This document shows positions 24,502 to 30,702 of a DNA stretch of 37,076 nt, piece by piece; positions within the stretch are counted from its first letter, which is position 1, and each line of letters begins with the position of its first letter. The translations under genes and the position numbers were made by a program. The stretch comes from Microcaldota archaeon (GTDB lineage Archaea; Micrarchaeota; Micrarchaeia; Micrarchaeales; CABMGC01): the NCBI GenBank assembly GCA_023270015.1, contig JAGDXZ010000053.1:1-37076 (forward strand), read 5' to 3'. Below the pieces are notes generated by a model. That model worked only from the letters and a program-made list of their open reading frames with translations, did not search any database and was not told where the DNA came from.

Positions 24502-26052
24502 ATGGGCATACTTAGCCTCATTGGCCTTTTGGTATTTGATACTCTTGCTTCGTGGATAAGGATGTTCATAGCGCTAGGGGCATCGATACTTCTAGGGCTA
24601 GGCATAGGAATCTATGCAGCAAGAAGAAAAACTGCTGAAAAGGTCGTTATACCTATAGTAGACATTCTCCAAACTCTCCCAATACTTGCATTCTTCCCTT
24701 TTGTAATTTATGTCATAGTTGCAACCCTGCCCGGCTACATAGGCATAAACGCTGCTGTGATCTTCCTGATTATAACAAGCATGCTGTGGAACATAATATT
24801 TGGAGTTTACGAAGCTGTAAAGACCCTTCCGCAGGAATTCTTGGAGCTCGCAGCTTTGTATAAGCTAAACAAGTGGAAAAGGCTTGCGAAAATTTATGTG
24901 CCTGCAAGCATGCCGAAGGTAATTGACCAATCTACACTCTCGTTTGCCATAGGCCTGTTCTACCTTGTTACTAGCGAGATATTTTCCACAGCCAACTCCA
25001 CATATGCTGTCAAATACGGCATAGGTGTTGAGCTTACGAAGCTTGCAATTAGCAACAACTTTGCCGCATATGCAATAGGCATAGCCGTATTTATTGCTTT
25101 TGTTGTTGCAACAAGACTTTTCTTCTTTGCTAAGCTTGAAAAATACTATACTCGCTATAACGCACCGATCAGGCTCAAGCCTTTGTCGCAAGCAAGGCAT
25201 AGGCAGTATGCTGCGTTTGCACATGCAATTGTTACGCACATACCTAGGATACGGTTTAGAACAGAAAACAAGCAACAGATAGAGAGAGTTTATACGCCAA
25301 AACCTGAAAAGAAGATAATTTCTTCAAAAGCCATAGGATATGCGCTGCTTTCCGTCACAATTTTGCTGATATTATTCTATAGGCCATTCTCTGCAAATGA
25401 GGGCACAGTACTTGCATCGCTTGCCGTGTCTTTCGCAAGGGTATGGCTTGCATTTGCTCTGATAACAATCATCGCTGTGCCACTAGTTGTATACTTGTTG
25501 TTTATGAGCAAACATGCATCTAGCTACCTACTTTTGTTTCAGATCTTGGCTTCTATACCTGCCACAATACTCTTGCCCATCATAGTTACAGCGTTGAAAG
25601 GTCTGCCAATGCATGATGAGCTTGTGGCATTTACTGTTTACTTCCTCAGTGGCATATGGTATGTGGTGTTTAGCACTCTTGCGAATAAGGCGTACATACC
25701 TAGCAATATGCTCGAAGTTAAACGTATATTCGGTGTCAGAGGCATCGAGGCGTGGAAGAAAATGTATTTCTATGCAATACTTCCTGGCCTCATAACAGGA
25801 GCAGTGACAGGCATAGCTGCAGAATGGAACGCAAGTATAGTAGCGGAGTATTTCACAACCTCGGCAATAGGGAGCGGAGCTGTAATAACGAGCGTAGGAA
25901 TTGGAATAGGCAAACTCCTGGACACATCTCTCGACTCTGGGAACCTAAGCCTTATGTTGCTTGGATTATTAAATCTTACAATCATGATTGTTATTATCAA
26001 CAGGTTTGTATGGAACAGGCTTTACAGAAAAATTGAAGCTGTAAGCAAGTAA
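24502..26052 (+). CDS. NitT/TauT-type ABC transporter, duplicated permease (two BPD_transp-type halves fused)
   Basis: Two EAA-type regions: EAVKTLPQEFLELAALYKLNKWKRLAKIYVPASMPK and LEVKRIFGVRGIEAWKKMYFYAILPGLITGAVTGIAAEWNASIVAEYF. Confidence 0.85.
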   Translation: MGILSLIGLLVFDTLASWIRMFIALGASILLGLGIGIYAARRKTAEKVVIPIVDILQTLPILAFFPFVIYVIVATLPGYIGINAAVIFLIITSMLWNIIFGVYEAVKTLPQEFLELAALYKLNKWKRLAKIYVPASMPKVIDQSTLSFAIGLFYLVTSEIFSTANSTYAVKYGIGVELTKLAISNNFAAYAIGIAVFIAFVVATRLFFFAKLEKYYTRYNAPIRLKPLSQARHRQYAAFAHAIVTHIPRIRFRTENKQQIERVYTPKPEKKIISSKAIGYALLSVTILLILFYRPFSANEGTVLASLAVSFARVWLAFALITIIAVPLVVYLLFMSKHASSYLLLFQILASIPATILLPIIVTALKGLPMHDELVAFTVYFLSGIWYVVFSTLANKAYIPSNMLEVKRIFGVRGIEAWKKMYFYAILPGLITGAVTGIAAEWNASIVAEYFTTSAIGSGAVITSVGIGIGKLLDTSLDSGNLSLMLLGLLNLTIMIVIINRFVWNRLYRKIEAVSK

Positions 26053-26081
26053 ATAAATAAGTAGAGTTAGATGGCGATATT

Positions 26082-26822
26082 GTGAATCTACTCGACGTGG
26101 CTGGAGTTTCATACTTCATAGGCGACCTTGAGATAATAAAAGATGCAACCTTTAAGGCTAATGATGGTGAATTTGTATCACTCATAGGCCCTTCTGGCTG
26201 CGGAAAAAGCACGCTGCTTAGAATAATAGCAGGCCTCATTAGACCTACAAAAGGCAAAGTGATGTATTTGGGAAAGGAGATTGTAGAGCCAATACCAGAA
26301 ATATCTTTCGTGTTTCAAGATTTCGCACTTCTCCCTTGGCTAAACAATGTGGAAAACGTAGAAATAGGGCTCTCAAGGAGCAGCATAAGCGAAGAGGAAA
26401 AAAGGAAAAAGGCGCTTGAGATACTAAGGCACGTAGGCCTAAGCGGGTTTGAATATGCGTATCCTAATGCGCTTAGCGGCGGAATGAAGCAGAGGGTTGG
26501 AATTGCAAGGGCGATAGTGTCAGAGCCTAAAATACTTTTGATGGATGAGCCATTTAGCTCGCTTGACGAATTAACTGCTGAGGCTCTGAGAAAAGATGTT
26601 TATACAATGCTCAAAAGCAAAGATAACCCAGTAAGCTCGGTAATAATGGTAACGCATAATGTTGAGGAAGCTGTCGAACTTTCTGACAAGATCGTTGTAA
26701 TGGCTCAGAAGCCATCTTATGTAAAGAAAATACTTGAGGTGAAAATGGGCAGACCGCGCAACAAATACAGCAAAGAATTCAGAGACTATGTCAACACAGT
26801 CTACAAGCTTCTTACTACTTAG
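26082..26822 (+). CDS. ABC transporter ATP-binding protein (NitT/TauT type)
   Basis: Walker A GPSGCGKSTLL, Q-loop FVFQDFALLPWL, signature LSGGMKQRVGIARAI, Walker B ILLMDEPFSSLDELT, H-loop VTHNVEEAV. Confidence 0.93.
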   Translation: MNLLDVAGVSYFIGDLEIIKDATFKANDGEFVSLIGPSGCGKSTLLRIIAGLIRPTKGKVMYLGKEIVEPIPEISFVFQDFALLPWLNNVENVEIGLSRSSISEEEKRKKALEILRHVGLSGFEYAYPNALSGGMKQRVGIARAIVSEPKILLMDEPFSSLDELTAEALRKDVYTMLKSKDNPVSSVIMVTHNVEEAVELSDKIVVMAQKPSYVKKILEVKMGRPRNKYSKEFRDYVNTVYKLLTT

Positions 26823-28023: not shown

Positions 28024-28848
28024 GTGCTTGAGAAGCTAATCGCTGGAAAATGGATAGCAGGACCAGAGATAGAAGATTCGATAGAAAGGTCAGTGGCACT
28101 AAACAAGCTTGGCATAAGAACAATCATCAATTACCTTGGCGAAGATTTCAAAAGCAAAGATAGGGTAGAGGACGCAATGGCAACATATGCAAAGCTAATC
28201 AAAGAAATAAAAAGAAGAGGAATAGAAAGCGACATATCAGTCAAGATAACCCAGCTTGGGCTCAGAATTAGCAAGGCCTATGCTACAAAAAACTACCTCA
28301 AGCTTGCTAGGCTTGCAAAGCCGCTCTTTCTATGGCTCGACATGGAATCGAGCGATACCGTAGATGCTACAATCGGCGCGTATGAGAAGGCGCTACATCA
28401 GGGAAACGTAGGCATATGCCTGCAAGCATATTTGAAAAGAAGCTATGAAGATATGAGAAAGCTTGTGAAGAAAGGCGGCATAATAAGGCTGGTAAAAGGC
28501 GCCTATAAGGAAAGGCCCGAAGTAGCATTTCAAAACAAACAGGCAGTGAATGCAAACTTTGAATTCCTTATGAAATATTTGTTCAAGCATGCCAGGAAGT
28601 TTACCATTGCAACCCACGATAAGAATATGGTAGAGAAGGCGCTGCTGCTCAACAGGTCATACCAGCGCCAGGTCACCTATGCGTTTCTAAATGGCATTAG
28701 AGGCAGCTATGCAAGAATGCTGGCAGAGAGAGGCGAACATGTAGCAGTTTATGTGCCTTTTGGCAAGCTTTGGGTCGATTATGCAATAAGGCGGATGAGA
28801 GAACAGGGCCACGCGATGCTAATACTCAGATCATTGCTTGGCAGTTGA
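28024..28848 (+). CDS. Proline dehydrogenase (FAD-dependent, PutA-type domain)
   Basis: IRTIINYLGEDFKSKDRVEDAMATYAKLI, LWLDMESSDTVDATI, GICLQAYLKRSYEDMRKLVKKGGIIRLVKGAYKE, FTIATHDKNMVEKAL. Confidence 0.88.
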   Translation: MLEKLIAGKWIAGPEIEDSIERSVALNKLGIRTIINYLGEDFKSKDRVEDAMATYAKLIKEIKRRGIESDISVKITQLGLRISKAYATKNYLKLARLAKPLFLWLDMESSDTVDATIGAYEKALHQGNVGICLQAYLKRSYEDMRKLVKKGGIIRLVKGAYKERPEVAFQNKQAVNANFEFLMKYLFKHARKFTIATHDKNMVEKALLLNRSYQRQVTYAFLNGIRGSYARMLAERGEHVAVYVPFGKLWVDYAIRRMREQGHAMLILRSLLGS

Positions 28849-30585
28849 TTTGCGCGCCTTCGCATTTTCCAATTCTTCTCCAATGCCTACTAGGAACTCG
28901 GTAACTAATCTGGTGTATAGCGAAGCAAAGGCTTCATCATGGAAGGAATAACCAAGCAGATGCACATACTCGTGCATAAATATGCCGAGCAAGCCTAGAA
29001 GGGCGCCTTCGTTTTCAGAGCTTCGGCTAAGTATGCTCTTTACTTCTGAATTGTTAAGGTTGAAGCATATCTTGCCTTTGTATTCGAACGCTTCGATGGA
29101 AGGATCATCTAATTCGGCAAAGTAGATCTCAACGCCTCCGATGCTGATTCCCTCTGACAGTTTAACGATTTTGTCAGCAATTTGTGGGGACGTTACGCTG
29201 TCGAAATTGCTTTTTATGCTAATAACTTTCCCCCTTACAACAGAAGAAAATGCAGTTTCTTGATAGTTCTGCAACTTGTTGACCAGCTCTTGAATGCGTG
29301 GCATATAATTCTCTATAAATTTCAATGCTTCCTTTTCGACTTCGGTCTTAACGCCACGTACTGCATATGAATGTGAAAGGTCTATGTCTGATATAGAAGG
29401 AATGCCTGCAAAAAATGGAACCAAATCTTCATCAATGAGTATCACTGTATAGCCTGAACCGACTGCCCGCTTTACAAATTCGTCACTTGCAGATTTTAAG
29501 GCCCAGATAGTGTTGGGAATTTTAATCAGCTCTCTGATGCTGAGCTTGCCTTCGCCGGTCTCCACGATAATTACATCGAGGAAGTCTGCAGGTTTTGCGC
29601 GACCTTGGGAAATGAACCATTTTGCTGCTTTTATGATCTCTTCTCTTTCTTTTAGCAAATCTTCTTTCTTCCATTCGGACAGAAACCCGATAAGCGCCTC
29701 CCTGTAGATATTGTAAATTTCCCAATCATATATTTTTGTATCTTCCCTGCTAAGTGTAGTTACCGTGTCATTTCCCCTTGGTTTGAAATCAACATAGCCT
29801 CCAAGCATGAAAGGAAGCCCGATAGATTTTATTCTTATTCCCTTTTCCGCTATTGCCAATTCGTTTGAATGGGTAAATCCAACCTCGTAACCGAGTTGCC
29901 TAAAATCGCCGTCGTACCAGAAGTGGTTATCGTATTTATAAACCCTGAGAGGAGCTAACGACACTTCTACTTTCTTGCCGTTTATGTTCACTTCTAGACT
30001 CGTACTGCCGCCGACCAAAATCCCCTTCAAATAATTTTTAAGTTCGTTTTCACTTATCTTGGCCCCATCTATTATTACCCTTGTTCCATCGATAAATTCG
30101 TCGCTTTCCTTTACGACATATTTTCCTATCTGCTTCCACTCAACCACTGTATTTCCTGTTTGTATGGTTATGCTGCCACTATAGCTTATGCTACCGTCGT
30201 TATTTTCCTTTGCAATAGGTGCCCAATAAGAAAGCCTGCCGAAGCCGTATCTTCCCCTTTGGTTCTTAGCATCGTCTTTAAACTTAAATCCCACTTGGCT
30301 GAATTCCTTTTGAATAAAATCTCGGGACATGCCTTTGCCGTTATCTTGAAACAATAGCCTATTGGGAGAAACGCTGATTGAAAGCGCAGTAGCACCTGCG
30401 TCTAAGGCATTCTGAATGATCTCCCTTACAAAGGAAAGCCTATTTTTGTAAATATCGACTCCCTGCTCGTAGAGACCTCTTTCAGTTACACTCAGTGCTA
30501 TCTCCTTTCCTTGACCAGTTACGCCGTTACTTACACTCTGATCCTGGTCGGTAGCTTTTTTCCCAGAAAAAAAGGTAAACCGCAT
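28831..30585 (-). CDS. GHKL/Bergerat-fold ATPase fused to C-terminal HExxH metallopeptidase-like domain
   Basis: N-box FVREIIQNALDAGA, G1 DNGKGM, G2 RYGFGRLSYW, then ~300 aa, then MHEYVHLLGYSFHDEAFASLYTRLV. A TATA box (tataaata, 30616-30609) about 25 nt upstream supports start ATG 30585; the track start is 30654. Confidence 0.8.
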   Translation of the reverse strand: MRFTFFSGKKATDQDQSVSNGVTGQGKEIALSVTERGLYEQGVDIYKNRLSFVREIIQNALDAGATALSISVSPNRLLFQDNGKGMSRDFIQKEFSQVGFKFKDDAKNQRGRYGFGRLSYWAPIAKENNDGSISYSGSITIQTGNTVVEWKQIGKYVVKESDEFIDGTRVIIDGAKISENELKNYLKGILVGGSTSLEVNINGKKVEVSLAPLRVYKYDNHFWYDGDFRQLGYEVGFTHSNELAIAEKGIRIKSIGLPFMLGGYVDFKPRGNDTVTTLSREDTKIYDWEIYNIYREALIGFLSEWKKEDLLKEREEIIKAAKWFISQGRAKPADFLDVIIVETGEGKLSIRELIKIPNTIWALKSASDEFVKRAVGSGYTVILIDEDLVPFFAGIPSISDIDLSHSYAVRGVKTEVEKEALKFIENYMPRIQELVNKLQNYQETAFSSVVRGKVISIKSNFDSVTSPQIADKIVKLSEGISIGGVEIYFAELDDPSIEAFEYKGKICFNLNNSEVKSILSRSSENEGALLGLLGIFMHEYVHLLGYSFHDEAFASLYTRLVTEFLVGIGEELENAKARKSTAKQ

Positions 30586-30608
30586 GAATTTCTTCATGCC
30601 TTCGCTGG

Positions 30609-30616
30609 TATTTATA
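30609..30616 (-). promoter_or_regulatory. Putative TATA box TATAAATA for the GHKL-HExxH gene
   Basis: Minus-strand aaagTATAAATAcc; spacing fits a leaderless start at 30585. Confidence 0.5.
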
Positions 30617-30702
30617 CTTTGATATTTGGAAGCAGTATACAAAAATTTCAACAAAAAGGCAAAACAAAAGTAATAAAATTTTAAATATTATAGCATCCTG
30701 GT

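Follow-up and report, generated by a model that had tools for sequence, protein, structure and literature searches.

A small Micrarchaeota genome (0.79 Mb) encodes, in a single chain, an Hsp90-like ATPase module followed by a SprT/WLM-like zincin. The gene lies in the window (the whole stretch of 37,076 nucleotides of contig JAGDXZ010000053.1 that was analysed) and the two-domain architecture is well supported: the active sites of the two parts are conserved together in 32 members of the family, in agreement with a preliminary description of the gene product as a GHKL ATPase with a metallopeptidase-like HExxH domain at its C-terminus. Because a GHKL ATPase is here joined to a zincin with a conserved third ligand, the best reading is an ATP-gated protease. 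We consider it probable, judging from sequence and from predicted structures, that the protein is a single-chain metalloprotease in which a clamp of Hsp90 type would gate an SprT-like peptidase; zinc binding, proteolysis, ATP coupling, dimerisation and the nature of the substrate are all predicted features. The gene and its upstream signal are as follows.

28831..30585, minus strand: coding sequence of 584 aa, with an Hsp90-like ATPase module and, C-terminal to it, a SprT/WLM-like zincin (open frame, family alignments)
30607..30620, minus strand: TATA-like box aaagTATAAATAcc, ~26 nt upstream of the ATG at 30585 (direct sequence reading)

The short distance between the TATA-like box and the ATG is consistent with a leaderless transcript. 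The preliminary description had given the gene a TATA box of its own and no obvious operon partner; the box can be read at the position listed, and no partner was found at the archaeal locus. GC content is the same for gene and window (0.42). Neighbors in the window encode an ABC transporter, an Lrp/AsnC-type regulator, an AhpC-type peroxiredoxin, a proline dehydrogenase, an AAA-associated domain protein, a pyruvoyl arginine decarboxylase and a DUF429 protein: none is a recognized defence or mobile gene. The proline dehydrogenase gene (28024-28848, plus strand) is convergent with the gene described here, and the 3' ends overlap by 18 bases (28831-28848). The ABC transporter (24502-26822) comprises two genes (a duplicated permease and an ATPase) in what is a very small archaeal genome.

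The N-terminal domain carries the complete GHKL ATP-binding signature that had been claimed for it.

29941..30513, minus strand: GHKL / Hsp90 N-type ATP-binding domain, ~residues 25-215 (Pfam HATPase_c_3, Foldseek matches to Hsp90, profile match to HtpG)
30409..30423, minus strand: N-box EIIQN, E55 and N59 aligned with HtpG E34 and N38 (invariant in 32/32, mapped to HtpG)
30328..30345, minus strand: G1 box DNGKGM, D81 aligned with HtpG D80 (D81, G83 and G85 invariant; mapped)
30235..30255, minus strand: ATP-lid glycine motif GRYGFGR, residues 111-117 (G111 and G116 invariant)

The N-box stretch reads REIIQNALDAGA (E55, N59), and the hallmarks of the GHKL ATPase superfamily are present: N-box E/N, the DxGxG of G1, a glycine-rich lid and a GT box in which G167 is invariant. 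HATPase_c_3, matched at residues 53-119 with 45.6 bits (cut-off 25), is the sole Pfam family above its cut-off in the protein.

The middle region, previously taken for an unrecognized family, proved to be Hsp90-like.

29386..29943, minus strand: Hsp90-like middle domain, ~residues 215-400, S5-like M1 plus alpha/beta M2 (Foldseek of two models, HtpG profile alignment to residue 487)
29746..29748, minus strand: R280, counterpart of the catalytic-loop arginine of Hsp90 (invariant in 32/32, aligned to HtpG R336)

Foldseek searches with two AlphaFold models, one for the window protein (pLDDT 65, with modest confidence of ~50-70 in the C-domain) and one for a phage member (pLDDT 81), returned Hsp90s exclusively among the top 50 matches, with E-values from ~1e-15 to 1e-12; MORC and MutL, considered as the closest fold, were rejected on the basis of both models. 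The family HMM matches HtpG (E 1.3e-6), with profile positions 1-378 spanning HtpG 1-487, that is, the N and middle domains. TM-scores of the models against full Hsp90 are only ~0.4, which may reflect a different relative placement of domains together with the unshared C-terminal domain. Since the M2 subdomain by itself (residues 325-397, the end of the middle domain) finds no Hsp90 by sequence, its assignment rests on fold comparison and on the whole-length profile alignment. In Hsp90 the glutamate of the ATP site and the arginine of the middle domain are catalytic. The window protein thus shares with Hsp90 (HtpG, TRAP1) the N-domain ATP site, the order in which an N-domain is followed by an Hsp90-type middle domain with its catalytic-loop arginine, the predicted fold, and equivalents of the catalytic E, N and D. 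It differs in having a zincin where Hsp90 has its C-terminal dimerisation domain, in its low identity (~13%), and in the lack of any match to PF00183, the family that includes the dimerisation domain. The protein may work like an Hsp90 without being filed as one.

The third part of the protein is the putative peptidase.

28858..29238, minus strand: SprT/WLM-like minizincin domain, ~residues 450-576 (PDB profile search; weak Pfam matches in members)
28960..28974, minus strand: HEYVH, residues 538-542, comprising the proposed catalytic Glu and two His proposed as metal ligands (invariant)
28939..28941, minus strand: H549, within HDEAF (an H-x3-F motif), proposed as third metal ligand (invariant in 32/32, column rank 1)

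The C-terminus reads HEYVHLLGYSFHDEAF, which contains H538, E539, H542, H549 and F553. Searched against the PDB, a C-domain profile of 30 members gave Spartan first (two chains, E 0.004), then proabylysin, a WLM protease, an autolysin and Wss1. Individual members gave weak Pfam matches to SprT-like (best E 0.0013), YgjP-like and WLM families; the C-domain reaches none of the Pfam cut-offs of the SprT/WLM-like profiles, one member (P0003), for example, scoring 12.9 against a cut-off of 25.6 bits. The signature of this group – HExxH and then a third His in H-x3-[FW] – is conserved, and in the phage model a helix (491-505) bearing the first HE of HExxH follows strands at 457-479, with the third His placed directly before the next helix, as in minizincins. 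We therefore have, in all likelihood, a divergent SprT/WLM-like minizincin with a moderate profile match, in which H538, H542 and H549 would bind zinc. It resembles SprT/Spartan and WLM/Wss1 (and with them YgjP-like proteins and the proabylysin minigluzincins) in the motif and in being nearest to them by profile, and is unlike them in staying below every Pfam cut-off, in its fusion to an ATPase, in its variable spacing, and in that no SprT zinc ribbon was seen. The preliminary description had seen a possible third ligand in HDEAF, which the conservation of H549 bears out; it had also noted a resemblance to the metzincin HExxHxxGxxH. This second likeness is coincidental, because members do not conserve the Gly and have HExxH and the His spaced 6 to 12 residues apart; no metzincin appeared among the profile matches, and metzincin identity was rejected.

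Conservation was assessed in an alignment of the 32 members, which come from archaea, plasmids and phages. By conservation, H549, H542 and H538 rank first, second and third among all columns of the protein, and no variation occurs at E539, E55, N59, D81, G83, G85, G99, G111, G116, G167, G249, G263 or R280 either. The residues that had been singled out for such a check, namely the N-box Asn, the G1 Asp and HExxH with its third His, are thus retained in all 32. Most homologues, viral ones included, were kept for carrying HExxH, so the invariance of that motif is partly the product of selection; H549 was no selection criterion. At least 16 other GHKL proteins from the same searches (MutL, Topo VIB, paraMORC3 and others) lack a C-terminal HExxH. 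The archaeal and the phage/plasmid groups have the same domain order and can be aligned with each other over both the N and middle domains (profile comparison, E 7.6e-19) and the C-domain (E 8e-5), which favors, without proving, a single origin of the fusion.

Several known systems share part of this arrangement. MORC, paraMORC and MutL have a Bergerat ATP site and an S5-like second domain, but are without a peptidase; membership of MORC/paraMORC was rejected, there being no restriction-modification genes near the gene in the window and the fold search pointing to Hsp90. Relatives of paraMORC3 type that adjoin Dcm methylases lack HExxH, unlike the fusion. Phage rIIA is likewise a phage GHKL ATPase with a variable C-terminus; orthology was rejected, as the Achromobacter rIIA has no HExxH and the PHROG rIIA family matches the window protein weakly. 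Restriction enzymes (BbrUII/HgiDII, REase_II) were discarded on account of a match limited to the N-domain. FtsH, an AAA+ ATPase (a hexameric ring) fused to an M41 zinc protease, offers an analogy in the way it works, as its single chain holds both an ATPase and an HExxH protease; both its ATPase and its peptidase family are unrelated to those described here. In a survey of jumbo phages the rIIA GHKL proteins are described as having variable C-termini and SprT-like peptidases appear as proteins of their own, with no mention of the fusion (PMC7824862); a MORC survey does not mention peptidases (PMC2292703), and a survey of polyvalent proteins mentions neither GHKL nor Hsp90 (PMC5512222). In a literature search of open-licence papers no description of a GHKL/Hsp90 ATPase–metallopeptidase fusion was found, nor did the libraries examined contain a named family.

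Scanning genome contigs with the whole window protein alone gave no match; relatives were recovered with a three-sequence profile. Full-length members occur in 3 of the 302 genomes of the phylum (the source genome included), all from one archaeal family (3 of ~79 genomes). These relatives are metagenome-assembled genomes of Candidatus Micrarchaeota, the phylum being labeled Microcaldota in the tree. The two other archaeal proteins share 22-27% identity with the window protein, all three have HExxH followed by H-x3-[FW], and in the tree they form one group (100/100) with very long branches. Plasmid searches found homologues in Deinococcus ficus (WP_027462877) and Thioalkalivibrio (WP_013006613) whose C-terminus is the same; with the Thioalkalivibrio protein as query, 197 plasmids were matched (most of the protein being covered in 95), their hosts being mostly Acinetobacter, Pseudomonas and Xanthomonas. 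Carriers of the family include many conjugative plasmids from Pseudomonas and Acinetobacter. Haloarchaeal plasmids also carry members. The motif is present in all 13 members from bacterial plasmids or phage-plasmids and in both haloarchaeal members that were read; annotation of the plasmid relatives is nearly always just 'ATP-binding protein'. A scan of IMG/VR yielded 23 loci, on contigs of up to 479 kb. Among the archaea examined the gene occurs sporadically, as an accessory gene of the chromosome; elsewhere it belongs to the accessory genes that large phages and plasmids carry, a location suggestive of a role connected with mobile elements there.

How might such a protein work? We propose that the Hsp90-type N-terminal ATPase and middle domain (E55, N59, D81, the lid glycines and R280) would form an ATP-driven clamp, with the minizincin occupying the place of the Hsp90 C-terminal dimerisation domain. 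Zinc would be held by H538, H542 and H549, and E539 would act as general base. The clamp would close and open as ATP is bound and hydrolysed. A client protein, whether misfolded, part of a complex or stuck on DNA, would thereby be held or remodelled, and would be cut only once engaged. The Hsp90 fold speaks for a chaperone client, likeness to Spartan/Wss1 and the phage neighborhood for a DNA roadblock: the two versions are not separable from sequence.

The second version can be stated as a narrower form of ATP-gated proteolysis, with DNA and not a chaperone client as the platform: the GHKL module would close round DNA, like MORC or MutL, and the SprT-like domain would degrade proteins stuck there. 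Spartan and Wss1, which are among the nearest solved relatives of the C-domain by profile, are DNA-protein-crosslink proteases, and MutL is among the matches of the N-domain. Furthermore, about nine phage loci (the L060 clade: L060, L062, L063, L065, L066, L070 and L073-L075) have a conserved block around the gene, consisting of terminase gpA, an RNase H-like protein, the fusion itself and an NAD-dependent DNA ligase with BRCT. However, the fold matches are to Hsp90 and not to MORC or MutL, no DNA-binding domain or zinc ribbon was recognized, and the archaeal members have pI values from acidic to nearly neutral (5.2-6.4). We regard this version as rather unlikely.

A second alternative makes the protein a regulator or effector, acting by limited proteolysis, in counter-defence, defence or a toxin-like role: on sensing a signal, which could be stress, a host factor or an invading element, the ATPase would let the zincin cleave a single target specifically. 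Patchy occurrence within the archaeal family, presence on phages and plasmids, and the resemblance of the N-domain to GHKL proteins of restriction systems all fit such a role. Against it, the two other archaeal copies adjoin, on reading of their ORFs, apparent genes for transcription factor B or ribosomal proteins, and no defence genes were seen beside any archaeal copy: the defence role entertained in the preliminary description gained no defence-island evidence from this survey. No PADLOC defence family covers the window protein, matches being short, partial and confined to the N-domain, and plasmid neighbors vary, with no partner conserved across plasmids. The probability of a role of this kind appears low.

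Slightly lower still is that of a non-proteolytic protein, that is, an Hsp90-like chaperone whose zincin is structural or binds clients. Three full-length IMG/VR phage members (L068, L071 and L072), probably of one lineage, keep the ATPase and a flanking WTDG motif and have lost HExxH and the third His; their zincin is probably degenerate and non-catalytic. Elsewhere, however, H538, H542, H549 and E539 are invariant, with the His columns conserved at least as strongly as the ATPase motifs, and the reading is weakened because a purely structural site would need no Glu. Finally, short motifs can arise at random (0.005 HExxH expected in the window protein from composition alone), but HExxH and the third His stand at the same aligned place in 32 divergent members, including homologues of just 15-27% identity, and this conservation refutes an accidental HExxH in a GHKL protein to the point of near certainty.

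The peptidase domains of known ATP-dependent proteases are coupled to AAA+ motors. If ATP-gated proteolysis is the correct reading, an Hsp90-type ATPase and an SprT-like protease in one chain would couple ATP to proteolysis differently, and with one purified protein the question of whether an Hsp90 clamp can gate a protease becomes directly testable. Tentatively, and with rather less than even confidence, we suggest that these proteins represent an energy-dependent protease of a new class, which would be the first to be built on a clamp of Hsp90/GHKL type rather than on an AAA+ ring. Large phages and plasmids would have spread it, some of the archaea that carry it yielded no canonical Hsp90, and it may serve to free DNA of protein roadblocks. 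The family is also an accessory gene that has stayed hidden although many large plasmids and phages carry it. For the Micrarchaeota, it gives a very small genome an Hsp90-like machine, a canonical Hsp90 not having been detected by PF00183 search of the source genome and 60 relatives.

A gene for an M48-family metallopeptidase lies directly upstream of the fusion gene on an Acinetobacter plasmid (L049:4126-4866) and in a related phage record (L050:3030-3824). On a Halobaculum plasmid (L007:4950-8569) a GHKL gene overlaps a DNA cytosine methyltransferase gene and an SprT-like gene is convergent; the GHKL and SprT-like genes are possibly a split counterpart of the fusion.
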